Part shown: in pieces, positions 3,679-17,971 of the stretch
Layout: each line of letters starts with the position of its first letter
Numbering within the stretch: position 1 is the stretch's first letter
IMG/VR virus record: IMGVR_UViG_3300020411_001047
Span: 1 to 20,880 of that record
Strand: one strand, 5' to 3'
DNA: 20,880 bases
Source: a virus
The notes under the pieces: model-generated
What the model saw: the letters and a program-made list of their open reading frames with translations, nothing else
Database searches by the model: none
What the model was told of the DNA's origin: nothing
Made by a program: the position numbers and the translations under genes

Positions 3679-3963
3679 ATGGCACTCAATAAACAAAAAT
3701 TAGCTAAAGGTATAAAGAAGGCTTTTGATGAAGGACATAAGATTGTTAAGAAAAATGATAAAGCAGATATGCATTGGGAAATCGCAAAAAGAATCGCTGA
3801 TTCTATCGATGAATATATCAGAGGTGGTGATGTGAAAGTAGATACTGATACACCAAATGTAAAAATTATGCCTGGTATAGCTACACCATTGGGTTCAACT
3901 ATCGCACCTGGAAATCCTGTTCCAATGTCAACAAAAGGAACTGGGAAAGGTAAGGTAGTTTAG
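3679..3963 (+). CDS. Small tandem-paralogue protein A (PGNPxPMSTKG family), unknown function
   Basis: A 94-residue protein with an N-terminal helix MALNKQKLAKGIKKAFDEG, a second helix IAKRIADSIDEYIRGGDV (about residues 36-53), and an extended Pro/Gly tail ending APGNPVPMSTKGTGKGKVV. The neighbour at 3964 has the same plan and is evidently a duplicate: MxLNKxKLAKxIKKAxD at the start, I..SIDxYIR in the middle and PGNPxPMSTKG at the end. It ends in TAG with the next ATG directly abutting. Small proteins near gp5 in T4-like phages include the PAAR spike tip gp5.4, but no PAAR signature is visible here. A virion or baseplate role is inferred from position. Confidence 0.7.
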   Translation: MALNKQKLAKGIKKAFDEGHKIVKKNDKADMHWEIAKRIADSIDEYIRGGDVKVDTDTPNVKIMPGIATPLGSTIAPGNPVPMSTKGTGKGKVV

Positions 3964-4311
3964 ATGCCATTGAATAAAATGAAATTAGCTAAAGATATTA
4001 AAAAAGCTTTAGACAAGATGGAATCAAAGGGTAAAAAAAAGGCTTTTAAGAAATCAGATGACCCTCATGAATTTTTAGGTAAGGAGATTTCTAAAGCGAT
4101 TGATAATTATATAAGGAAGGCAGATGTGGTAGGTGAACATAATATGAAGAATTATAAAATGAATGTAGGAACAAATACATTAGAATACGCACCACCATAT
4201 GCAACGCCAACACCTGGAGCAACGATATCACCTGGTAACCCAGCGCCGATGTCAACAAAAGGTCCATTTGGTAAGGGGGCTTATCCTGGTGCTAAAGGAA
4301 AGATAACATAG
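3964..4311 (+). CDS. Small tandem-paralogue protein B (PGNPxPMSTKG family), unknown function
   Basis: A 115-residue paralogue of the preceding protein. Shared parts are the N-terminal helix (MPLNKMKLAKDIKKALDKM), the second helix (ISKAIDNYIRKADV, about residues 41-54) and the tail motif (TISPGNPAPMSTKG). It differs by a Lys-rich insertion after the first helix (ESKGKKKAFKKSDD), an inserted NMKNYKMNVGTNTLEYAPPYA stretch, and a Gly-rich end (PFGKGAYPGAKGKIT). The start abuts the previous TAG. The next gene follows after 10 bases carrying AGGAGA. Function is unknown; the duplication suggests two related subunits or a subunit and its variant. Confidence 0.7.
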   Translation: MPLNKMKLAKDIKKALDKMESKGKKKAFKKSDDPHEFLGKEISKAIDNYIRKADVVGEHNMKNYKMNVGTNTLEYAPPYATPTPGATISPGNPAPMSTKGPFGKGAYPGAKGKIT

Positions 4312-4321
4312 GAGATAAAAA

Positions 4322-4747
4322 ATGCCAGAAAATCCAGATTTAAATGATGATATATCGGTTGGTGTAACCTTACCATTTGACGGGGATCAACTTGGTGGGT
4401 ATAATTTATCTAAAACAACATTACAACAAGCTTCATCAAATATAAAAAATCTTTTACTAACTATGAAAGGTGAACGACCAATGCAACCAACATTTGGATC
4501 TGATTTATTTAGAACTTTATTTGAACCTATGGTTGATGGTGGTGAAATAGAGGAACAAGCTGAATTAGCTATTAATGAAGCTATGGAAGAATGGTTACCT
4601 TATATAAAAATAGAATCATTGGATTTTACATCATCAAATGTTGAGAAAGACAGAAACATATTTAAAATAACAATGGTCTTTTCGATAGTGGGTGATCCAA
4701 ATAGATTTGATGAATTAACATTTACAGTTGAAGGTTCGGGAGAATAA
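4322..4747 (+). CDS. gp25: gp25-like baseplate wedge subunit (lysozyme-like gp25/gpW fold)
   Basis: A 141-residue protein of the T4 gp25 / phage P2 gpW-type wedge family, which connects the baseplate inner ring to the sheath and helps nucleate sheath assembly. The diagnostic segment is ERPMQPTFGSDLFRTLFEP at residues 51-69: the Glu, the P-x-FGSDL turn and the following helix are the family core. The preceding stretch (LQQASSNIKNLLLTMKG, about residues 34-50) also fits. The C-terminal half has the expected helix (AELAINEAMEEWLPYIKIESLDF) and final strands. AGGAGA lies six bases before the ATG, and gp6 starts two bases after the stop, the usual gp25-gp6 neighbour pair. Length is typical for the family. 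Confidence 0.9.
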   Translation: MPENPDLNDDISVGVTLPFDGDQLGGYNLSKTTLQQASSNIKNLLLTMKGERPMQPTFGSDLFRTLFEPMVDGGEIEEQAELAINEAMEEWLPYIKIESLDFTSSNVEKDRNIFKITMVFSIVGDPNRFDELTFTVEGSGE

Positions 4748-4749
4748 TA

Positions 4750-6756
4750 ATGCCAAAGCAAGATGTCAAAAAAGAAGTTAAATATTTAAATAAAGATTTT
4801 AAACAATTTAGAAATAATCTAATTGATTTTGCTAAAGTTTATTTTCCAAATTCATATAATGACTTTAATGAAACATCTCCTGGTATGATGTTTATTGAGA
4901 TGGCATCATATGTCGGTGATGTGTTGTCTTATTATATAGATAATCAATTTAAAGAATCATTATTAGGTTACGCGGAAGAACAACAAAATATACTTAGATT
5001 AGCACAAACACTTGGGTATACACCAAAATTATCTACACCATCAATTGTAAATTTAGATGTTTATGTTGTAATACCATCAGACTTAACAGATTCATTAAAT
5101 CCAAAACCAGATTATACATACGCTCCTATAATTGAAGCTGGTATGGAACTTGGTTCATCATCAACAGGTACAAATTTCAGAACATCGGAAGCAGTAGATT
5201 TTAGAAGTGGTGGTACTGTATCTGTATATGAAACAGATGGTGATAACAATCCAATGAGATGGTTGATTAAAAAAAGTGTTATGGCTCAAGCAGGAACAGT
5301 TAAAACTTTTACTCAAACCTTTAACGCACCATCTAAATTTGTAACATTTGAATTACCAGATGCAAATGTTATAGAGATATTAGATTGTAAAGATTCGGAT
5401 GGTCAGAGTTGGTATGAAACACCATATCTTGCTCAAGATACAATGTTTGTTGATACAGCCAATACATCTGCTAATGATTCTGAATTAGCTCAATTTAGTC
5501 AAGACGCTCCATTTTTATTAAGACTTAGAAAAACAGCAAGAAGATTTATAACAAGAATAAATAGTTTAAACAAAATGGAATTGAGATTTGGTTCTGGTAT
5601 ATCAGACAATCCTGATGAAGAGATTATTCCAAATCCAACAAACATTGGTTCGTTTTTACCTGGAACACCATCAAAGATAGACCACTCATATGATCCATCA
5701 AACTTTTTATATACAAGAACATATGGATCAGTTCCAACTAATACTTCATTAGTTGTTCGTTATTTAGTTGGTGGTGGTATAGATTCAAATGTTCCTCAAG
5801 GAGATATAAAAACTGTTAATACAGTTGTGTGGAATTATGCTGATGAAGAATCTTTAGATGTTAATACTGTCAAAAAAATAAAACAATCACTTGCTGTAAC
5901 AAATACTGAACCAGCAACAGGCGGTAGGGGTATTGAATCGAATGAAGAAATTAGAATGAATGCTATGGCTCATTTTTCTACACAAAATAGAGCAGTAACT
6001 AAAGAAGATTATATAACAAGAGTTTATTCGTTACCATCTAAATATGGTAATGTAGCTAAAGTTTATATTGTTCAAGATGACCAAACAAATCAAGCCGATG
6101 GTGTTGTTGTAACATCTAACAGTACTGGTAAATCTGTAACAACAGGAGGAGAGGGTGGAACAGCATCTTCAAACGAATCTAATGGAACATTCGGAACTGG
6201 TGCGGTTGTTAATGCTGGGTTCATAGGACCAGCTTCTGCTGGTAAAGCTCATATACCAAATCCATTAGCTTTAAACTTTTATACTTTGGGATATGATTCA
6301 AATAAAAAATTAATCAAACTAAATTCTGCAGTTAAACAAAATTTAGAAAACTATTTAAGTCAGTATAGAATGTTAACCGATGCTATTAATATGAGAGATG
6401 CTTATATAGTTAATATAGGAATAAACTTTCAGATATCGGTATTAAAAAATTATAATAAAAGAGAAGTTATTTTAAAATGTATAGATAAGATAAAAGATTT
6501 CTTTGATATAGATAAATGGCAAATAAATCAACCAATTGTAAAAGCTGATTTAATTTATGAAATGTCATTGGTCGATGGAGTTCAGAATGTAATTGAAGTT
6601 AATGTTGTTAATAAATGGGATAAAACACAAGGATACTCTGGTAATGTTTATGATATAACAGAAGCTACAAGAAATGAAATAATATATCCATCAGCTGATC
6701 CTTGTATCTTTGAATTAAAATATTTTGAAAAAGACATAGAAGGTATGTCGGTTTAA
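4750..6756 (+). CDS. gp6: gp6-like baseplate wedge subunit
   Basis: A 668-residue protein matching the T4 gp6 wedge family, which as a dimer forms the continuous inner ring of the baseplate. The N-terminus is characteristic: YLNKDFKQFRNNLIDFAKVYFP, then FNETSPGMMFIEMASYVGDVLSYYIDNQ and LAQTLGYTPKLSTPS (about residues 12-98). The middle is beta-rich with variable insertions. GGRGIESNEEIRMNAMAHFS (from residue 391) followed by NRAVTKEDYITRVYSLP is the conserved region shared with baseplate-J proteins. A Ser/Thr/Gly-rich loop (about residues 455-490) looks surface-exposed. The C-terminal domain (LNSAVKQNLENYLSQYRMLTDAINM onward) is also typical. T4 gp6 is of similar size (about 660). It directly follows gp25. 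Confidence 0.88.
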   Translation: MPKQDVKKEVKYLNKDFKQFRNNLIDFAKVYFPNSYNDFNETSPGMMFIEMASYVGDVLSYYIDNQFKESLLGYAEEQQNILRLAQTLGYTPKLSTPSIVNLDVYVVIPSDLTDSLNPKPDYTYAPIIEAGMELGSSSTGTNFRTSEAVDFRSGGTVSVYETDGDNNPMRWLIKKSVMAQAGTVKTFTQTFNAPSKFVTFELPDANVIEILDCKDSDGQSWYETPYLAQDTMFVDTANTSANDSELAQFSQDAPFLLRLRKTARRFITRINSLNKMELRFGSGISDNPDEEIIPNPTNIGSFLPGTPSKIDHSYDPSNFLYTRTYGSVPTNTSLVVRYLVGGGIDSNVPQGDIKTVNTVVWNYADEESLDVNTVKKIKQSLAVTNTEPATGGRGIESNEEIRMNAMAHFSTQNRAVTKEDYITRVYSLPSKYGNVAKVYIVQDDQTNQADGVVVTSNSTGKSVTTGGEGGTASSNESNGTFGTGAVVNAGFIGPASAGKAHIPNPLALNFYTLGYDSNKKLIKLNSAVKQNLENYLSQYRMLTDAINMRDAYIVNIGINFQISVLKNYNKREVILKCIDKIKDFFDIDKWQINQPIVKADLIYEMSLVDGVQNVIEVNVVNKWDKTQGYSGNVYDITEATRNEIIYPSADPCIFELKYFEKDIEGMSV

Positions 6757-7810: not shown

Positions 7811-8872
7811 ATGCCAATAAGTCCAGAAAAACAAAAAGAGTTAGCCAACGAACAACCTGGTAAAAATGATGTAACTGAACTTCAAGAGAAAGAAGCAAGA
7901 CAAAAACAATCAGAACTTCAAGTATCAGCTAGTTTGGGTCAGATAGAACCAAATGTAAGAGATGCCGCAGGAAATCTTGTTTTATTCGAAGATGTGAATG
8001 GTGGTAATGTTCAAGAATCTTCACAATTTATTACTGTAAAAACTAAAACACCAGTACATGATTCTGGTGAAGTAGATTCTTTACTTGATAATGTAGTAGA
8101 AGAATTATTACCAATGTCGGAAGAGGAAGATGAGGGTATATCTTTATCAGAAAGGATTAGAAATTTCTTTATTGAGTATGAAGAGTTAAGAGATTTAATA
8201 TGGGATGAGAATGAAATGGAAGCACAAGAATCCCATGTTTATTTAGTTAAACAAAGTAAATCTTACTTACCAATACCAAAAGTTCCATTAAGATATGATG
8301 GTGATGTTGCTGGTATGCAGGGAGAGGGTAGACTTAAAAGTAATAATGTTGTTGAGTTAAGAGATGCTGTATTTTTACCATCTATGGAAGGTCATCAAAT
8401 AGATTTATATGGGTTATCTAAAAATGAAAATCCTGTTTTAACAATAAATGATATTATTAAAACAATTATAACTAAAATGGCTACATTGGAATTGGGTGAA
8501 ATTGATGTAAATAAATTTACAGCAACTTTAAAAAGGTCATTAAGTGCTAAATATGAAACAGGTCAAATTAGAAAGAAAGAGCAAGATGATCTTGATAAAA
8601 AGTTAGAAGAGGTATTAAAAGAATTATATCCTAATCTTGAACAGGGTGATACTCAAGAGAAAAAAGAAGAAAAAATGAAAGAAGATTTGGATAAGAAACC
8701 AAAGAAAACTACAGCAGATAAAGCTTCTGAAAAAAGAAAAAGAAGATTAAAAGGATTTAGAGCTAGAAGGAAGAAGGGTGCTAGATATACAAATGCTAGA
8801 ATGAGAGTTAGAAATAGAAAAGGTAAAACAACAAATTCAAATAGACAAACTTCAAAAAGAAGAGGAAACTAA
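7811..8872 (+). CDS. Unknown structural-operon protein with strongly basic C-terminal tail
   Basis: A 353-residue protein of unrecognised family. The N-terminus is hydrophilic and Gln/Glu-rich (residues 1-55). The acidic region EELLPMSEEEDEG (about 95-107) is followed by a compact core with SYLPIPKVPLRYDGDVAGM and AVFLPSMEGHQIDLYGLSKN (about 150-205). Helices follow (LTINDIIKTIITKMATLEL; KKEQDDLDKKLEEVLKELYP). Residues 308-353 are a tail with 22 Lys/Arg out of 46, beginning KRKRRLKGFRARRKKGAR. The next protein starts in the TAATG overlap and begins with an even more basic segment, so the two may share a binding partner. A GAGG lies seven bases before the ATG. The basic tail might contact DNA, an acidic protein or an acidic glycan; nothing decides between them. 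Confidence 0.65.
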   Translation: MPISPEKQKELANEQPGKNDVTELQEKEARQKQSELQVSASLGQIEPNVRDAAGNLVLFEDVNGGNVQESSQFITVKTKTPVHDSGEVDSLLDNVVEELLPMSEEEDEGISLSERIRNFFIEYEELRDLIWDENEMEAQESHVYLVKQSKSYLPIPKVPLRYDGDVAGMQGEGRLKSNNVVELRDAVFLPSMEGHQIDLYGLSKNENPVLTINDIIKTIITKMATLELGEIDVNKFTATLKRSLSAKYETGQIRKKEQDDLDKKLEEVLKELYPNLEQGDTQEKKEEKMKEDLDKKPKKTTADKASEKRKRRLKGFRARRKKGARYTNARMRVRNRKGKTTNSNRQTSKRRGN

Positions 8873-11800
8873 TGGGTTTATTTAGTAGATTAAGAAGACG
8901 ATTAAAGAGAAAGAAGAAAAGACGTAATCTTAAAGGAAAGAAACGTTTAAGTAGACAATCCAAATTAAGAAGACTTCTTAAAGCAAAACAAAAAAATACA
9001 AGAAGAAAATCAAGTAGGAAGAAACCTCTTACTAAGAAGGAAATTCTAGCCAAAAGAACCCGTAAAGTTAAAAGATTAACTGGTAAAAAAAGAACTATAA
9101 AGAGACCTAAAAAATCTATAAAGTTTAAACCAGGAAAGAAACTTACTGCACAACAAAAGAAGAAAGCTTTAGAGTATAGAAATAAAAGAAGAGTTCAAGT
9201 TGCTTTAATAAAAGAGAAGTCAGAACAAGCTAAAGATGCACAAGACCAAAAATTAGAAGAAGCTGTAGCTAAACGAAATGAAAAGTTGGGGATTAAACAA
9301 GAAGAAACTCAACCTGTTACTGTTAATGAATTGATGTATGAACTTAAAGATGCTATTAATAGACAATATGTAGAGCATGGAAGATCAGCACCAGCTTATT
9401 CTGGAACTGTAACAGAAATAATCAGTCCTACTGAAGTTAAAGTAGATGTTCCATTTACAGACCACCAATTAGATACAGGGTTTTTGTGGAGAGATTTTAC
9501 TATTAATTATCCTGTAAATGAATCAGTAGAGATATCAGGAACTGAATTAGAAGAAAAAGATTTAGTTATAGGTGAACAAGAATTTGATATAGAACAAAAA
9601 ACTTTAAAGTTACAAGAAATTACAACACGAAGTGAGGAGTTAGTAACAAGAGTTCTACAATTCTTTGCATTGAATGGATTCTTAACTGGTAGTTTAGATG
9701 AAACACATTTATTATCACAAGACCAAGCACAGACTATTAAAAAAGTTTCAGAAGCTTTAGAGGGTGCTCAAGATAAATTTACTATAACATCCCAACATTC
9801 AGCTTCATTAGCTGCTATACATAAAGATCCAAGAGGGTGTAGAGCGCCCGAAGATATTATAGCTCCTGATGTTATTCCTGTATTTGAATTTTATAATCCT
9901 ATATCTGATGATTATTTTTATTCAGTAAATCAAGAATGGAATTACGACCAAGACGCTGGTGATGGATATGCTAAATTTCAAATGTTTAAGGAATACATTG
10001 AAACTAATAGACTTGAAACAGTTGAATACCATCAAATACAAAATGATTTTAAAAGAGAAGGTAAAGGACCTACTGCTGTTGATTTTGAAAACGCAGAGGA
10101 ATCAGATGGAAAATTAAGAATGAATTGGGGTAAGGGTTCACCTGCTCAGGGTGCTACTGACCATCTGTTCACTACTTTATGGGAAGGATATTGGAAACCA
10201 TTAAGACATGGTAAAGTACAATTAAGTATGAAAGTTGATAATTCAGGATTTATAGATATATGTGAACCGGGTGGTCAATGGAGAAGAATTTTAAATACTG
10301 GTTGGGGTGATAGAGATCAGAATGGTGGTATGGGTAAGGCATCAGATACCTTTGAAGTTCCAAAAGAGTGGGTAGATAAGGATATTAGAATACCAATAAG
10401 ATGGATGCAGTCTGAAAGTAAAGGTGATGCTCAATTTAGAATTGGTCAAAAATATTTAGATGCACCTGATGAGGTAGTAACAAAGAAAGTTCCTATATAC
10501 GCGTTTCAAAATATAGGAAGTATTAGGTGGTTTAAAAAACGACCAAAGCTTGTAATTGGATATAAGACAGTTAAATATAATTTATCGGATAAGTTTTTAG
10601 ATTGTGATGCTAGTCAAATTTCATTAGCCGCTCCTGGTAATTGGAAATATAATACTGTAGCATTTGGTGCATATGACCCATTACAAGCATCTCATATGAA
10701 AGCTACTATGGCAGTACCTGTTCATAAATTTACATCGGGTCCTATTAAACCAGATTACTATGAAGCGGCTGGTAGAACATTACAAGGTAATGTTGATAGA
10801 GGTAGCCCATCGAGAGCTAATGAAGCTGCTGGTATACATTATTTAGCTGTTGATAAAAAAGCTCCTGAAGATAATACTCAAATTGATTCAAAAGATTGGA
10901 ATGATTTAGGAACAGAGTTCTATGCTTTATCAGATGAATTACCATCACCACATCCTACATTTAGGGAAGAAATTACTTTGACAAATAATCAAACTGGTGC
11001 TGTAGAAGAAGTAGTTGTAGAACAAGGTAAAGCTTTACCTGTTCATTATTTTTATAACAAAGCTTCTGGAACATATAGATTCAGAATAATTGAAGATGGT
11101 AGAACAAGACAAGCTAGAACAACTGAAGGTGTATTGAAAGAAAGTGAAGATGGTATTCCAGTTATGGAAAAAACTGAAATTAAAATTGGAACAAACTTTA
11201 CTCCTGAATTAGCTGGTGGTAGTAACGCAGCTGCTAAAGATGGAAAAGGAAAACCAGCACCAGCTATACAAGTTGGTGAAGGTTATGAGTGGAAAGGAAT
11301 TGCATTTTATGCATATGAACCACCTGGATTACCACCAAATGTTCATCCAATAATTCAGATTTATATTAATAACAAATTAGCTCCTGAAAATTATCAAGTA
11401 AGAGCTAAGTGGTTACATTTAGATCATCCAGTATCAATGACAGCAAAAGCTATGGATTCCGATGGTAGAATTACAAAATATACTTGGAGATTAGTAAATC
11501 AGAAATCTGATATAAGAGGTAGGAAGGGTGAAAAACCAAGAATACTTGCTAGAGATGCATCATTAAAATATACTTTCCCAATTGGTAGAACAAGAATTAG
11601 TTGTACTGTTGAAGATAATAGAGGTGATTCAGCAACAGATACTATTGATATTATAGTATTAGCACCTGAAAGAAAGAACTGGCAACCATGGACATATGAT
11701 GATATGAATAAGTTACAAGGAAATCAATTTAATGTTCCATATTATTATCATAGAAGAAGAAGGTGGAGAAGAGATGTTCGTAAGACTGTAAATGTTCCAT

Positions 11801-12618
11801 ATAATAAACAAGCATATGATTTTTATCAATTAGGATTTAAAGATGGTCAGAATGATGATGACCCAAGAGATTCAGCCGCTTTAGATAGATTTAAATTTGG
11901 AAGAACAAGAACTGTTCCTTATCAAGTAGCTACTGGTAGAAGACGAAAAAGAAGATGGGGAAGAAGAAGATGGGTAACTAACTATACAACAAAATATAGA
12001 AAAGAACATTATAGTGAAAGTGGAAAAGATTTAACAAGTCATAATTGGTTAAGACAACGTAATTCGCATGTTAGAAGTATTGGTATGGCTGAATCTGAAA
12101 TAGATAATAGAATGAAAAAGATATATAATCTTGGATATAATCATGGTAAAAAAGGTCCACATTATCTGATAGATAATGATTTAGCTTCTAATATTAGAGG
12201 TGGTAAAAATTTACATCCAAGACAACTTAAAGGTTTTGAGAGATTAAGACCACCTAAAAAGGTTAGAAATAGAATAAAGAAAGCTTTAACAGTACCAAAG
12301 AAAATTAGAAATAAAGTATTACCACCTAAAAAGGTTAGGAAAGCAGTTAAGAAAGCCGCAAGAAAAATTAAAAAGTTTTTCAAAAGATGGTCTGATGTTA
12401 GATTAAAAACAAATATTAATTATATCAGAACCTCAAAAAGTGGAATAAATGTTTATGAATATAATTATATATGGAGTAGTAAAAAATATAGAGGTGTTAT
12501 GGCTCAAGAATTATTAGAGAAATACCCTCAAGCTGTAGGAAAAAGACTTGGATATTATACTGTTGATTATGACAGATTAGATGTTAACTTTGAGGAAGTA
12601 GATGGCAGAAGAAAATAA
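8872..12618 (+). CDS. Large multidomain fibre/adhesin-like protein with C-terminal peptidase S74 auto-chaperone
   Basis: A 1248-residue protein. Residues 1-110 are extremely basic (30 Lys/Arg in the first 60). From residue 335, IPVFEFYNPISDDYFYS resembles short Tyr/Phe-rich adhesin repeats such as DUF5648. About residues 425-540 look PA14-like (LFTTLWEGYWKPL, MKVDNSGFIDI). About 845-931 form a PKD/Ig-like domain (AMDSDGRITKYTW ... CTVEDNRGDSATDTIDIIV). Arg clusters lie at 961-967 and 1022-1034, then a Lys-rich linker. Residues 1174-1248 form an intramolecular chaperone: SDVRLKTNI (Ser1174, Lys1179 as the likely self-cleaving dyad), YRGVMAQELL, YYTVDYDRL. Such domains fold trimeric fibres and then cut themselves off. 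At 75 residues this one is short. The last 17 bases overlap the next gene. The S74 call is firm; the PKD-like and PA14-like calls are moderate. Confidence 0.8.
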   Translation: MGLFSRLRRRLKRKKKRRNLKGKKRLSRQSKLRRLLKAKQKNTRRKSSRKKPLTKKEILAKRTRKVKRLTGKKRTIKRPKKSIKFKPGKKLTAQQKKKALEYRNKRRVQVALIKEKSEQAKDAQDQKLEEAVAKRNEKLGIKQEETQPVTVNELMYELKDAINRQYVEHGRSAPAYSGTVTEIISPTEVKVDVPFTDHQLDTGFLWRDFTINYPVNESVEISGTELEEKDLVIGEQEFDIEQKTLKLQEITTRSEELVTRVLQFFALNGFLTGSLDETHLLSQDQAQTIKKVSEALEGAQDKFTITSQHSASLAAIHKDPRGCRAPEDIIAPDVIPVFEFYNPISDDYFYSVNQEWNYDQDAGDGYAKFQMFKEYIETNRLETVEYHQIQNDFKREGKGPTAVDFENAEESDGKLRMNWGKGSPAQGATDHLFTTLWEGYWKPLRHGKVQLSMKVDNSGFIDICEPGGQWRRILNTGWGDRDQNGGMGKASDTFEVPKEWVDKDIRIPIRWMQSESKGDAQFRIGQKYLDAPDEVVTKKVPIYAFQNIGSIRWFKKRPKLVIGYKTVKYNLSDKFLDCDASQISLAAPGNWKYNTVAFGAYDPLQASHMKATMAVPVHKFTSGPIKPDYYEAAGRTLQGNVDRGSPSRANEAAGIHYLAVDKKAPEDNTQIDSKDWNDLGTEFYALSDELPSPHPTFREEITLTNNQTGAVEEVVVEQGKALPVHYFYNKASGTYRFRIIEDGRTRQARTTEGVLKESEDGIPVMEKTEIKIGTNFTPELAGGSNAAAKDGKGKPAPAIQVGEGYEWKGIAFYAYEPPGLPPNVHPIIQIYINNKLAPENYQVRAKWLHLDHPVSMTAKAMDSDGRITKYTWRLVNQKSDIRGRKGEKPRILARDASLKYTFPIGRTRISCTVEDNRGDSATDTIDIIVLAPERKNWQPWTYDDMNKLQGNQFNVPYYYHRRRRWRRDVRKTVNVPYNKQAYDFYQLGFKDGQNDDDPRDSAALDRFKFGRTRTVPYQVATGRRRKRRWGRRRWVTNYTTKYRKEHYSESGKDLTSHNWLRQRNSHVRSIGMAESEIDNRMKKIYNLGYNHGKKGPHYLIDNDLASNIRGGKNLHPRQLKGFERLRPPKKVRNRIKKALTVPKKIRNKVLPPKKVRKAVKKAARKIKKFFKRWSDVRLKTNINYIRTSKSGINVYEYNYIWSSKKYRGVMAQELLEKYPQAVGKRLGYYTVDYDRLDVNFEEVDGRRK
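12249..12338 (+). repeat. Direct repeat of 18 bases encoding a Lys-rich PPKKVR linker motif
   Basis: ACCACCTAAAAAGGTTAG occurs at 12249-12266 and again at 12321-12338, 72 bases (24 codons) apart and in the same frame. The protein shows PPKKVRNRIKKA, VPKKIRNKV and PPKKVRKAVKKA in succession, just before the S74 domain. It appears to be a local duplication building a basic linker. Confidence 0.7.
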
Positions 12619-15600
12619 AAAATTAGAATATAAAAATCAAGAAGATATTGATACTACTGGTCAAAAGGCTAGGGGAGAAAGATTAAATCAAGAAGATTTA
12701 GATATTCTACCACAACCCACACTGGAGGATTCGGAGTTCGGGAAACCAGATAAACTTGATATTCAAGATGAATTTGTTGAATTGCATGTATATGATAAAC
12801 AAAACAATCTTCTTGAATCTATCTATGACCAAATTCAATGGACTACAAAGAAAGCACCGGGTGGGGAAAAAACTCAAGGTCAACAATTAGTTTTAAAACC
12901 TGGAGACGATTTAAGATTTCATGGTTACAGAGTTGGGAAGTTTAAAGTAGTATATAATTTCTTTTCAGAATTATTAGGTGATAGATTAGGTAATAAAGTT
13001 TATATTGAAGAGATATCACCAACACGACAAGAAATAAGAATATTACCTGTTAGAAAACACCCAAAGGCTAGTTTAGATCCAAATGAAAAACCATTTATAA
13101 AAGCTGGAACAGTGTATGATGGAACAACCAAATGGGATTCTGATATTAAAAAATTAGAAAGGGTTGTTGGTAAATTTGATGAACAAATTCAAATGGTTGA
13201 AAATCGTATTGATAAGAGAAAAAAACATATTAATCATTGGATGGATTCTCAAAAAACATTTAATTTAACTGGTAGAGTAAGATTGGAAACTTTAACTAAT
13301 AATTTTACAAAAATACCATATGAAAATAATTTAGATGAATATCCAAATCAGAAATATAGTTCTTTAAAAACTAAAGAAATTATAGATGATAAAATAAAAA
13401 CTAATGAAGAATCTCTTTCTAAATTTAATCAAAGATTACAAAAGTGGAAAGAAGCTAGAAAAGCACCACAATCTGATTTACATAAATTACAAAAATGGCA
13501 AGAGATTTGTAAACTTATGCACAAAGATGATAAAAAATTCTTTTCAGATTTTTATGATTTTACACAAGGTAATGATACTGATGATTATACTTACAAGGAA
13601 GGTATTATAAAATCTACTGGAACTATAAAAGATAATATGATAACTATTGAGGGTGGTAAGTTCCAAAAATATATGCAAGGTGGTACTTTAGTAGTTAAAA
13701 ATTTAAATACAGGTGAGATTACATATCAAGCTAAAATACAAAAAGTAAAGGGTAGTAAATCTAATCCAAGAACACTTGTTATGGATAGACCATATACAGT
13801 TAAAAATATCCCTACATTATTACCAAAAACTTTTGATTGGGAAATACAATATAGACATTCAAGAAAAGTTAATAGAAAAGATTTAAAAAATCTTATTTCA
13901 TTTGGTAATAATAATAATATTGTTGTAACTAATTGGTTGGTTGATAACATTACTTATTCGGATTTCCCTTTCTCTGCGATTCTTAAATTATACGAACCAT
14001 TACCAGAAGATATTGTTGAGAAAGATCAGTTTTGGTTATCAAGAGAAAGATTAGCTCCTGTAATAGAAAATATAAATTTATTTAGTAATGAAGAAGAAGA
14101 TTCGGGTAACCTATTAAGACCACCAAATTTTGATGTTGATGATAAATACTTACCAAATGCAGATAGACCAACTTTATATGAAAATTGGGATGACTTATTA
14201 TCTACCCAAGCTACTACTAAAGAAAAATTATTAAATGAATTATTTAGTGGAAGTTTAGATTCTGCTAGAGTTAATGTTAAGTATCAAAACTATGAAGACT
14301 TCATCCACTTTAGTTCAGCTGAAGAGAGATTAAAAAACTTTAGATATAAATTGACTTTACTTGAATCATATGATTCTAAAATAAATACATTAGGAAATGT
14401 TACAGGTTCGGAAAATACATCAAGTATGGTTTATGTTGAAAAACAAGAGTATTCTGAAAGAAGAAGAAAACTTATAAATGATTTTGATGGTTATGAAAAA
14501 CATCTATATTATGGAACACAATCTTTTTCAGATAGTGGTTTATTTTCAGGAAGTGCTGTAGATACTTGTTATCCAAAAATAAATTCAACTACATTGTATA
14601 CAGTGGATTCACCTACTGGTGAAGTTTGGATGGATAATCAAATAGCAACAGCTTCATTATATGATAAAACAAATTTAGATTCTTTATATAATTCATTACC
14701 ATTACATATTACTGAAGATCTTAACAATCAAGAATTTTTTACTTTTATGCATATGATAGGTCAACATTTTGATACTCAATGGCAATATGTAAAACAACTT
14801 ACAAAAGCTACGACAAGGAATGATTCTGTCACCGAAGGTATGTCAAAAGATATAGTTTATTATGTTGCTAAGTCGTTTGGTGTTGAGGTTGAAAAGGGAA
14901 CAGATGCTAGGAGGTTGTGGAGAGAATATCTTGGAACTAATGTAAGTGGTTCAGCTGATAGTGGAGTTGGTGCTGCTGTTGGGGAAGTTATATCATCGGA
15001 TGATTATTCAAAAGAAATATGGAATAGAATTTTAAATAACTTACCATATCTTTTAAAAACAAAAGGAACTTCTCGTGGTATTAAAGCATTGTTATCTTGT
15101 TATGGTATACCACAAAGTATATTGGATATAAGAGAATATGGTGGACCAGTAGCTGATACTACTAAACCAAGTTATTATTATAAAGAAGAATTTGGGTATG
15201 GTGTTCAGATGTTGGGTGATAACTATATATCAAGTAGTTGGTCAACATTTCAACCAACCAATAGATATCCTGATGGGGTAGAAATAAGATTTGATTTACC
15301 GTTTAGTGGAATGAAATCATCACCTGGTGTTGTTGGTAAATTAGAATCAACATCAAGTTTTACAATAATGGAAGCGTCTGGAACAAGTGCTAATAGTAAT
15401 TTAGCTAATTGGTCACTAACAGTTGAAAATAGTGGTTCAACAGATAATGATTATGGTGTTGTTGCACTTAATCTATATGGAACAGAAGGAACTTCATATA
15501 CACTTTCATCAAGTAAATTGCCTGTTTATAATGGTAAGTATTGGAGTGCTTTAGTTCAGAGAACAACAGAAGGTGGAAGCTTATTATCATCTGATGATAG

Positions 15601-17971
15601 TGGAAGCGCTATAAAATATAATTTATATGTTGGTCAATATAATGAAGAGGCTCATAAAGTTTTACATTCTTCATATACAAGTATGATTGTTAGTGGTGCT
15701 AATGCTACTGAACAAAAAGGAAATGCAAGTTGGACATCACCAATGACAATGTATATTGGTGGTGGGTTAGGTAAAAGATATGGTCATATGTTTACAGGTT
15801 CCTTACAAGAATATAGAACTTGGAATGGTGAGATATTAACTAAAGATACATTTTTAAATCATGTAGCATCACCAAAAACATATACTGGTAATACCTATTC
15901 ATCATCAAATGAATATAATACAGTTAGATATTCATTTAATCAGAAAAAGAATCATAGTTTAGCTGGTTATTATACAGAGAGTAATGGTAGAACTCATTTA
16001 AATGCAAATGTGGTAGATGAATCAAGAAATACAAGTCAAGATACACCTGGGTATACTGTAGGTTTTTCATCATTAGCAAGTGATAAATACCACTATGAAT
16101 GGGAAGTTAGTGAGAATAGATATCTTGTACCTAATATAGGAACAAGAAGACCTACTGATAAAATAAGACAAGAAGAAAGTGAATTAGTTCATGGTAATTT
16201 AAATACCAAAAAGTCTGTAGAAAGAAGTTCATTAGATGGTGCGCCATTAGATTCAAATAGAGTTGGTGTTTATTTCTCACCAACAAATCTTGTTAATATA
16301 GATATAATGAGAGAGTTTGCTGGTTTAGATATGGGTGATTATGTTGGTAATCCGTTGGATAGATATAGACCAAATTATCCTGATTTGGATAAATTAAGAA
16401 GATTTTATTTTGATAAGTATGTAGATTCGAATGGTAAGGCGCAAGGTAATTTAATTTATGAATATATTAAACTGATTGATTATTATGATAGGTCTTTATT
16501 TAATATGATTCAGAAGTGGTTACCAGCTCGTGCTAGTAAGACTGTTGGTATCGCCATTGAACCACACATATTAGAAAGAAGTAGGATTGAATGGAAACCA
16601 CTTGTTAAAGAAGAAAATAACTATGATGGTAAAGTTGATATTGAAGATTATATTGCTAGAGATGATTTAGATGATGGTTTTGGTGCAACTTATAAAGGTA
16701 GAGTATCGAACCAAGAGGGAGCTATTGATAAAGATAGTTTCTTTAATTTCTTTGGTGAACAACATACAGAAGAAGGTGGTATAGATCCAGACTCATATCT
16801 TAATTTCTTCGGTGAACAACATACAGAAGAAGGTGGTATAGACCCAGATAGTTATTTAAATTGGTTTGGTGAAGTATCCAATCCAACAGGTATTATAGAC
16901 AAGGATGGTCATTTTAACTTTACAGGTATACATACTCCGTTGGAGGGAGAAGTTCCACAAGATTCTTCTTTTAATTTAAGTGGTAGAACACCAAACTACG
17001 AAGGTGGAACAGAAGCTGAAACTCAAATAGATTTAAGTGGAACATCAAGAAGATATACAGGAGTAACAGATAAAGAACTTCAATATATTTTAAGTGGTAG
17101 AACACCAAATTATTCTGGTGGAACAGAGGCTGAAACTCAAATTGATTTAACTGGTAGAGTTCCAAGATATGAAGGGGAATCAGAAGCAGAAAATGAAGTT
17201 GGTTTAGAAGGAACTGCTAGAACATATGAGGGTGAAATGATGACACCATTAAGAGAGTATTTTGAATATCCTGTTATTCAGAATTTAAATGCTCTTTCTT
17301 GGAGTTTTGTTAGTGGTTCTGATAGAGGAGCTGGATTGAGAGATGTATTAAGGGGTGGTGAAGTTTTTGCTGAATTTAATGAACAACAAGATAGTCAAAT
17401 TAGATTTATTCATAGAAAATATCCATCAGCATCTTATGATAATACAACACATAATACTATCCATCCCGATGGAGCTAGAGAAGTTTATTTTAAATCGGGT
17501 TCAATTAGATGGGGTGGAGTATTAGATGTAGAGTTACAACCATATGAGATAAATAAATATATAAATCCTAATACACATCATGTAACTTGGCAAGATGGGT
17601 ATGTAAAAAATGGAGTAACAATAGATTATAAGGCTGCTGAAATAGTTCAAGAATTTTCAAGTATTCAAGCTGCACAAAAATATGAAGGTATAAAAATGGA
17701 ATGTGGTCCATATGAAACAAAGATTGATGATAGAGGTGAACAATATCAACATAGAGATACTGATAATCCACTACAAGAGAATCAAACATTGTTTGGTAGT
17801 GGTTGGGCTCATGGTGGAGGAAAAATTGGTATTACACCAGTGCAGTGGTTAGATTTATCTGATAGTAAAGAAACTTCAGATGGTGGACCTGTTATTAAGG
17901 TAACAGAAACAACACCAACACAATTAATAGTAACAACACCTGAACAAGATACTAATATTGATACAAATTAG
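12602..17971 (+). CDS. Giant tail/baseplate protein: tail-protein-I-like segment, LamG-like domain and 19-residue repeats
   Basis: A 1789-residue protein, the largest in the window. About residues 50-165 are a conserved N-terminal domain (EFVELHVYDKQNNLLESIYD, KPGDDLRFHGY, YIEEISPTRQEIRI). About 178-290 are coiled coil (KKLERVVGKFDEQIQMVENRI). About 700-850 resemble phage tail protein I: FFTFMHMIGQHFDTQW, then LPYLLKTKGTSRGIKALL (814-831) and SCYGIP. About 892-1095 read as a LamG/concanavalin-like sandwich (FDLPFSG, MYIGGGLG, GSLQEYRTW). About 1190-1345 are a conserved block ending LPARASKTVGIAIEPHILERS. Residues 1366-1555 are ten exact 19-residue repeats, followed by a 234-residue C-terminal domain. 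It overlaps the previous gene by 17 bases, with GAGGAAG before the ATG. Likely a long baseplate or tail-fibre-attaching subunit with a glycan-binding domain; the exact role is unknown. Confidence 0.75.
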   Translation: MAEENKKLEYKNQEDIDTTGQKARGERLNQEDLDILPQPTLEDSEFGKPDKLDIQDEFVELHVYDKQNNLLESIYDQIQWTTKKAPGGEKTQGQQLVLKPGDDLRFHGYRVGKFKVVYNFFSELLGDRLGNKVYIEEISPTRQEIRILPVRKHPKASLDPNEKPFIKAGTVYDGTTKWDSDIKKLERVVGKFDEQIQMVENRIDKRKKHINHWMDSQKTFNLTGRVRLETLTNNFTKIPYENNLDEYPNQKYSSLKTKEIIDDKIKTNEESLSKFNQRLQKWKEARKAPQSDLHKLQKWQEICKLMHKDDKKFFSDFYDFTQGNDTDDYTYKEGIIKSTGTIKDNMITIEGGKFQKYMQGGTLVVKNLNTGEITYQAKIQKVKGSKSNPRTLVMDRPYTVKNIPTLLPKTFDWEIQYRHSRKVNRKDLKNLISFGNNNNIVVTNWLVDNITYSDFPFSAILKLYEPLPEDIVEKDQFWLSRERLAPVIENINLFSNEEEDSGNLLRPPNFDVDDKYLPNADRPTLYENWDDLLSTQATTKEKLLNELFSGSLDSARVNVKYQNYEDFIHFSSAEERLKNFRYKLTLLESYDSKINTLGNVTGSENTSSMVYVEKQEYSERRRKLINDFDGYEKHLYYGTQSFSDSGLFSGSAVDTCYPKINSTTLYTVDSPTGEVWMDNQIATASLYDKTNLDSLYNSLPLHITEDLNNQEFFTFMHMIGQHFDTQWQYVKQLTKATTRNDSVTEGMSKDIVYYVAKSFGVEVEKGTDARRLWREYLGTNVSGSADSGVGAAVGEVISSDDYSKEIWNRILNNLPYLLKTKGTSRGIKALLSCYGIPQSILDIREYGGPVADTTKPSYYYKEEFGYGVQMLGDNYISSSWSTFQPTNRYPDGVEIRFDLPFSGMKSSPGVVGKLESTSSFTIMEASGTSANSNLANWSLTVENSGSTDNDYGVVALNLYGTEGTSYTLSSSKLPVYNGKYWSALVQRTTEGGSLLSSDDSGSAIKYNLYVGQYNEEAHKVLHSSYTSMIVSGANATEQKGNASWTSPMTMYIGGGLGKRYGHMFTGSLQEYRTWNGEILTKDTFLNHVASPKTYTGNTYSSSNEYNTVRYSFNQKKNHSLAGYYTESNGRTHLNANVVDESRNTSQDTPGYTVGFSSLASDKYHYEWEVSENRYLVPNIGTRRPTDKIRQEESELVHGNLNTKKSVERSSLDGAPLDSNRVGVYFSPTNLVNIDIMREFAGLDMGDYVGNPLDRYRPNYPDLDKLRRFYFDKYVDSNGKAQGNLIYEYIKLIDYYDRSLFNMIQKWLPARASKTVGIAIEPHILERSRIEWKPLVKEENNYDGKVDIEDYIARDDLDDGFGATYKGRVSNQEGAIDKDSFFNFFGEQHTEEGGIDPDSYLNFFGEQHTEEGGIDPDSYLNWFGEVSNPTGIIDKDGHFNFTGIHTPLEGEVPQDSSFNLSGRTPNYEGGTEAETQIDLSGTSRRYTGVTDKELQYILSGRTPNYSGGTEAETQIDLTGRVPRYEGESEAENEVGLEGTARTYEGEMMTPLREYFEYPVIQNLNALSWSFVSGSDRGAGLRDVLRGGEVFAEFNEQQDSQIRFIHRKYPSASYDNTTHNTIHPDGAREVYFKSGSIRWGGVLDVELQPYEINKYINPNTHHVTWQDGYVKNGVTIDYKAAEIVQEFSSIQAAQKYEGIKMECGPYETKIDDRGEQYQHRDTDNPLQENQTLFGSGWAHGGGKIGITPVQWLDLSDSKETSDGGPVIKVTETTPTQLIVTTPEQDTNIDTN
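16697..17266 (+). repeat. Ten in-frame tandem repeats of 57 bases (19 residues)
   Basis: Ten units of exactly 19 residues, each opening with Gly, most with a second Gly near position 8. Examples are GEQHTEEGGIDPDSYLNFF, GRTPNYEGGTEAETQIDLS and GRVPRYEGESEAENEVGLE. Unit starts fall at 16697, 16754, 16811, 16868, 16925, 16982, 17039, 17096, 17153 and 17210. Units 2 and 3 share 47 of 57 bases, with the first 32 identical; units 6 and 8 share 49 of 57. The regular Gly spacing and alternating polar/hydrophobic pattern suggest a beta-solenoid or stacked-hairpin rod. The minus-strand frame here is a shadow. Confidence 0.9.

Follow-up and report, generated by a model that had tools for sequence, protein, structure and literature searches.

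The window analysed here, meaning the whole stretch of DNA, is a 20,880-base contig from an uncultured virus, with 31% G+C. It carries a baseplate module on the + strand, in which a gp25-like gene and a gp6/J-like gene are followed by genes for large proteins, including a 1789-residue product that contains a tandem array of 19-residue units. Three other genes lie between the gp6-like gene and the gene for this product. The features of the locus are as follows.

4322–4747, + strand: gp25-like baseplate wedge protein (PF04965, E 1.6e-10; PHROG baseplate wedge, 2e-18).
4750–6756, + strand: gp6/J-like baseplate wedge protein (PHROG baseplate wedge, 8.2e-21).
12602–17971, + strand: baseplate-module protein of 1789 residues that carries the array (open reading frame; relatives in the same place).
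16520–16609, + strand: end of the last conserved domain, with the motif LPAR..G..EP..LERS and a 10-residue spacer (alignments A1–A5).
16610–16696, + strand: irregular unit 0, residues 1337–1365, EENNYDGKVDIED..., with about 11 residues inserted (sequence; offset from LPAR as in the first unit of group A, defined below).
16697–16981, + strand: units 1–5, sub-type [I/V]-[D/P]-x-D-x-x-[FLY]-N-[FLW] (unit comparison).
16754–16867, + strand: units 2 and 3, alike at 18 of 19 residues and with their first 32 bases identical (unit comparison).
16982–17266, + strand: units 6–10, sub-type Y-[E/T/S]-G-x-[T/S/M]-x (unit comparison).
17267–17971, + strand: C-terminal region, whose end, SDGGPVIKVTETTPTQLIV, fits the conserved C-terminal motif of the relatives, DGxxPVEVxxTNPxxL (alignments).

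The baseplate module also includes the gene at 8872–12618, which overlaps the start of the array-protein gene by 17 bases and encodes a 1248-residue protein with a Lys/Arg-rich stretch in its first 100 residues or so, a Peptidase_S74 (chaperone of endosialidase) domain at the C-terminus and a weak match to PKD. Elsewhere in the window, the adjacent small proteins encoded at 3679–3963 and 3964–4311 look like tandem paralogues, being alike at their start (LNK.KLAK.IKKA) and end (PMSTKG), and the 265-residue product of 491–1288, without a match in Pfam, is taken to resemble phage late sigma factors such as T4 gp55.

The 1789-residue protein had no Pfam, PHROG or PDB sequence family match; in Pfam, nothing was found at E 0.1 and only Prefoldin (0.27), outside the array, at E 10, and no Pfam or PHROG model covers the array itself. 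Its conserved part, which extends to about residue 1330, has homologues in the Microcystis phage Mel-JY01, in LR756508, a 484-kb uncultured phage, and in the Flavobacterium immuto phages (E 4e-88, 7e-83 and 1e-52, respectively). In all of these the gene order is conserved, with gp25- and gp6-like genes ahead of the homologue, and the gp6/J-like protein of the window shares 40–46% identity with theirs over 99% of its length. Their large baseplate-region proteins are annotated as hypothetical or have no annotation and, unlike the window, show no 19-residue array in their C-terminal regions.

The first-pass annotation of this DNA had described an exact array of ten 19-residue units with a strictly held length and a Gly-anchored period, all of which is borne out. 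Residues 1366–1555 (16697–17266) form ten units of 19 in frame and without insertions or deletions, with Gly at position 1 in 10/10 units and, additionally, at position 8 in 10/10. The period-19 autocorrelation (BLOSUM62) was 2.08, against a best value of −0.13 for any period in 1000 shuffles, and no comparable period was found in the other open reading frames of the window, where the best value, about 1.1, came from a Lys/Arg-rich stretch. The unit has a small residue at position 1, often Tyr and an acid at positions 6–7, and hydrophobic residues at positions 10 and 18. Two features had escaped the earlier description, namely unit 0, which is in the register of the ten units, and the division of the array into two sub-types (units 1–5 and units 6–10). 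The array adjoins the C-terminal side of the last conserved domain and is followed by a variable region and the conserved C-terminal motif.

Units 2 and 3 had been reported to share 32 leading bases and then to differ mostly silently, as if by partial gene conversion or recent exchange. The pattern was confirmed: all ten differences fall in the last 25 of 57 bases and amount to five silent codons (including TCA/AGT) and one Phe/Trp replacement. Among the 18 shared residues, silent change affects none of the first ten codons and five of the remaining eight (hypergeometric p about 0.0065), and this skew toward the second part makes partial recent exchange plausible. The longest exact direct repeat in the array region of the window is 32 bases, which is too short to suggest an assembly artefact. 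A second-order 38-residue duplication, previously assigned to units 6–7 and 8–9, is rejected, because units 6 and 8 are twins (17/19 residues, 49/57 bases) whereas units 7 and 9 share only 6/19 residues and 32/57 bases, no better than units 7 and 8 (7/19 and 35/57). Both in units 2 and 3 and in units 6 and 8, the protein sequence is kept while silent sites differ.

Relatives were collected from IMG/VR, where at least 573 loci were confirmed for the whole protein (573 of the 600 pattern matches listed), at least 547 for the C-terminus of group A (547 of 600) and at least 547 for the window-clade alignment (547 of 599); some contigs entered more than once, so that locus counts exceed phage counts. 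From each scan, 80 loci among the matches listed were taken on. The C-terminal region behind LPAR was cut out in 74/84 sequences, window included; the addition of group A, whose members are drawn from the IMG/VR relatives L040–L083 and L085–L164, gave 150 regions, window included, with 15 loci left out, and the last set, from the window-clade alignment, gave regions from 65/75 new loci. Among the matches listed, no relative was closer to the window than about 38–39% identity, and the best relatives by the conserved part for which a C-terminus was available (L005 and L168, 38%) have a short C-terminal region without an array. No match was obtained by tblastn of the array region against named phages, nor by tblastn of a group A C-terminus. 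Homologues were also observed in three metagenome-assembled-genome contigs (L165, L166 and L167), binned as Winogradskyella, a Nitrosopelagicus bin and an uncultured bacterium; these are possibly binned phage DNA, placed with their hosts or by mistake. They show no 19-residue array in the parts inspected, and the LPAR motif is present in only one of the three.

Tandem 19-residue units directly behind LPAR were found in the window, in group A and in a clade of three contigs (L007/L173, L171 and L172; hereafter the L007 clade). In group A, the distance from ERSK to GFG[IL]Y is 121–123 residues in 98/103 sequences, where 47/150 lacked a landmark and some contigs count twice, and this distance corresponds to five units. 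The distances recorded were 119, 121, 122, 123, 127, 131, 131 or 186 residues, the longest belonging to L069, which has about three more units. Group A units follow the motif [AGS]-[ED]-N-[NY]-Q-Y-[ED]-x-x-I-D and differ from those of the window in lacking the second Gly; they occupy the same place and register, with five units in nearly all sequences versus ten in the window. The L007 clade has one first unit and six regular 19-residue units that begin with Gly. Most group A arrays have the start of their first unit 29 residues behind LPAR, L007 has it at 30, and unit 0 of the window fits this offset. A comparison of copy number among related phages had been proposed; no relatives of the window close enough for it were found among the matches listed, and what stands at the level of clades is that unit number is a clade property, with five units in almost every group A sequence sampled, six regular ones in the L007 clade and ten in the window, the high end among the arrays seen here.

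The constraint on the unit was determined from 35 group A representatives below 80% identity (175 units), in which position 10 is hydrophobic in 98%, position 5 is Gln in 82%, positions 2 and 7 are acidic in 84% and 83%, and position 1 is Ala, Gly or Ser in 91%; in group A, positions 6, 10 and 18 are hydrophobic and positions 8 and 12 are mostly small. A composition-corrected profile of the ten window units was compared with 21 of 22 group A representatives, leaving out L074, which has 18-residue units. One phase beat all position permutations (0/5000), and the reverse test with a group A profile on the window gave 0/5000 for the whole array, 0/5000 for units 1–5 alone and p 0.002 for units 6–10 alone. 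The agreement of L007 with the window and group A phase was weaker (p 0.008 and 0.014). Reversed profiles scored fairly high, with 0.72 against 0.92 in group A and 0.83 against 1.09 in L007, so part of the phase signal is a general pattern. The shared phase, with a small residue at 1, hydrophobic residues at 10 and 18 and often an acid at 11, is thus found in the three sets, less strongly in L007. The agreement in phase of 21/22 group A sequences was dropped as evidence, since reversed sequences agree too. Unit numbers obtained by chain scoring of all relatives were also discarded, this scoring being too lenient and chaining through non-repeat sequence; five group A members (L067, L069, L081, L113 and L120) did not exceed shuffles, and the chain scores retained are those of the window (162 vs 51) and L007 (93 vs 33).

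Sequence change within the arrays is faster than around them. Across 254 close group A pairs, which are not independent, dN/dS was 0.07 upstream, 0.35 in the array and 0.14 in the C-terminal domain, and mean pairwise amino acid identity in group A was 48% in the array versus 78% upstream, which indicates relaxed purifying selection on the array sequence while length is held. Adjacent and distant group A units are equally alike (5.1, 4.6, 5.4 and 4.9 of 19 residues at distances 1–4), and hence there is no sign of neighbour stacking. The three contigs of the L007 clade have the same unit number but differ in how alike their units are. Units 3 and 4 agree at 57/57 bases in L171, as opposed to 45/57 in L173 and 42/57 in L172; units 1 and 5, which are not neighbours, agree at 56/57 bases in L173, as opposed to 49 and 48 in the other two contigs. 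The arrays concerned lie within L171:14048–15070 and L173:14054–15076. This pattern is best explained, as read from the sequences, by exchange between units with their number unchanged; identities of 57 bases in metagenome contigs could be assembly errors, a caveat from which the window is free. Unlike the window protein, in which none were found, the L007 homologue (L007:10831–17073) has PKD domains in three stretches (PF18911, E 2e-19); it also gives a weak Laminin_G match, as does L069.

Other relatives have a different period or none. Units of 31–32 residues occupy the place of the array in L008, L009, L012, L014, L015 and L024 and, in the last set, in L170, L175–L177, L181–L183, L185, L186, L188 and L189. 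This second repeat type, seen in L008, L012, L014, L024, L175, L186 and others, takes forms such as Y.PLES.LN.S.PFRVN.HT.ESGS..SASS. The unit length is 18 in L074 and 17 in the pair L035 and L037, and a clear period is missing from most other relatives, among them the three phage records.

AlphaFold2 modelling of group A (39 sequences, 404 residues) gave a mean pLDDT of 49, with 29–41 and no strands in the array and 70–82 in parts of the beta domain that follows it. For the window segment (38 sequences, 583 residues), the mean was 38 and the array had 24–44; small hairpins, spaced by about 19 residues, were modelled around Gly1 in the first three units, but their pLDDT of about 41–44 is too low to rely on. 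With 38–39 aligned sequences, low pLDDT can also mean that AlphaFold2 missed a fold. By charge and hydropathy, the window array and 97/97 group A arrays are on the disordered side, compared with 2/97 group A C-terminal domains; the array of L173 is very close to the dividing line (0.458 vs 0.464). The C-terminal region of the window likewise plots as disordered, so that its array does not stand out in this respect. Foldseek with the group A model returned nothing below E 0.5 from the PDB; its BFVD matches were limited to two homologues from phages and a weak match to Pithovirus. A PDB sequence search gave nothing for the protein, and a profile search gave one meaningless match.

Here it is tentatively proposed, as the leading reading, that the array is a fixed-length strap of the baseplate protein, with one short docking strand per unit, which becomes ordered on assembly, and with a fixed unit count in each clade. 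Its basis is the place, period, phase and held length of the array, together with weak sequence constraint and no predicted fold, and it is favoured because a rod finds no support in prediction and a free linker is at odds with the held length and phase-specific residues. The strap probably holds the two ends of the protein apart and is not a free-standing rod; a span from the LPAR domain to the shared C-terminal motif (DGxxPVEVxxTNPxxL, kept in the window as SDGGPVIKVTETTPTQLIV) is favoured. Each unit would offer a beta-strand-like docking segment, around positions 4–12, that stays unordered until it meets its partner on baseplate assembly, the candidates being an adjacent wedge protein and a fibre subunit present in several copies. 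The strap would then set the reach of the C-terminal part, unit number would set that reach or the number of contacts, and exchange between units may renew the sequence with the number unchanged. Many relatives have 31–32-residue units or no detectable array, and the family can therefore do without the strap.

The first-pass annotation had suggested instead a rod whose length may be tuned by unit number, which in its explicit form would be a beta-solenoid with each 19-residue unit as one coil of the beta-helix. This is unlikely, though it deserves to be weighed before the other alternatives. The unit matches the coil length known from filamentous haemagglutinin, as outlined in PMC3756990, and the pattern of hydrophobic and small residues in group A and the hairpin spacing in the window model are in its favour. 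However, the pLDDT is 24–44 in the window and 29–41 without strands in group A, the composition falls on the disordered side, only two or three hydrophobic positions per unit are well kept, each coil of a solenoid would stack its acidic residues (positions 2 and 7) on those of the next, and no Pfam repeat family matches. What survives of the earlier suggestion is the recurrence of the 19-residue spacing and of Gly, Ala or Ser at position 1 in relatives; the disordered-looking prediction and the relatives with units of 17, 18 or 31–32 residues or no array speak against it and fulfil half of the refuting outcome that the first-pass annotation had named.

A narrower version of the strap, somewhat more doubtful than the rod, would make it a multivalent ruler that folds on assembly, in which the partner is periodic (candidates are a wedge neighbour and a fibre adaptor lattice), each unit docks a single strand on one of its subunits, unit number counts these subunits and gene conversion renews the binding faces. 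It is improbable that the array is a trimeric fibre shaft, with three chains wound together. Short Gly-containing repeats are common in viral fibre shafts, and single-chain prediction of such trimeric shafts often performs poorly, as the low pLDDT would then reflect. However, the S74 chaperone domain typical of trimeric fibres sits in the neighbouring protein and not in the carrier, and the carrier lies among wedge genes, where a counterpart of gp7 would be a monomer, as T4 gp7 is described to be in PMC3004832. Least probable is a free, entropic linker grown merely by slippage, for although the composition, low pLDDT and fast sequence change would suit it, the length held at 121–123 residues in 98/103 group A sequences, the strong phase-specific conservation and the unit pairs 2/3 and 6/8, which keep their protein sequence while silent sites differ, do not.

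The narrower version of the strap, if true, would mean that the baseplate contains a molecular ruler built from docking peptides, and not from a folded rod or a helical tape measure. Independently of this, a 19-residue repeat of which a literature search found no description is now defined for a large, mostly uncultured phage group, with at least 547 group A C-terminus loci. A length held unit by unit while the sequence drifts offers a clean case in which to ask what sets baseplate geometry, and exchange of sequence between units at constant number has a natural example in the L007 clade.

Among known systems, T4 gp7 resembles the array protein in being a large single-gene product in the gp25–gp6 neighbourhood, and is described in PMC3004832 as a monomer of three domains joined by linkers, which contacts gp6, gp8, gp9 and gp10. 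There is, however, no sequence link through Pfam, PHROG or PDB, and its putative status as counterpart is read from gene order. Similarity to gp7 or Tail_P2_I was not detected by Pfam in four members of A1, and PF09684 was not found in 4/4 relative contigs; since these and other profiles gave no match, membership of the gp7 family is not claimed. The repeat itself is closest in kind to filamentous haemagglutinin (TpsA), which, in the account given in PMC3756990, has about 80 imperfect tandem repeats, each of at least 19 residues and with many strands and turns, that form the coils of a beta-helix rod. The likeness lies in the imperfect tandem repetition of 19 residues; the array protein gave no Pfam match to the haemagglutinin repeat profile and shares no family with it. 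Filamentous haemagglutinin is a secreted adhesin with a folded beta-helix of about 80 coils, whereas here 5–10 acid-rich units without a confident fold are part of a phage baseplate module. The array is thus a new, previously unnamed repeat family of a known general kind, that of tandem structural repeats in tail proteins.
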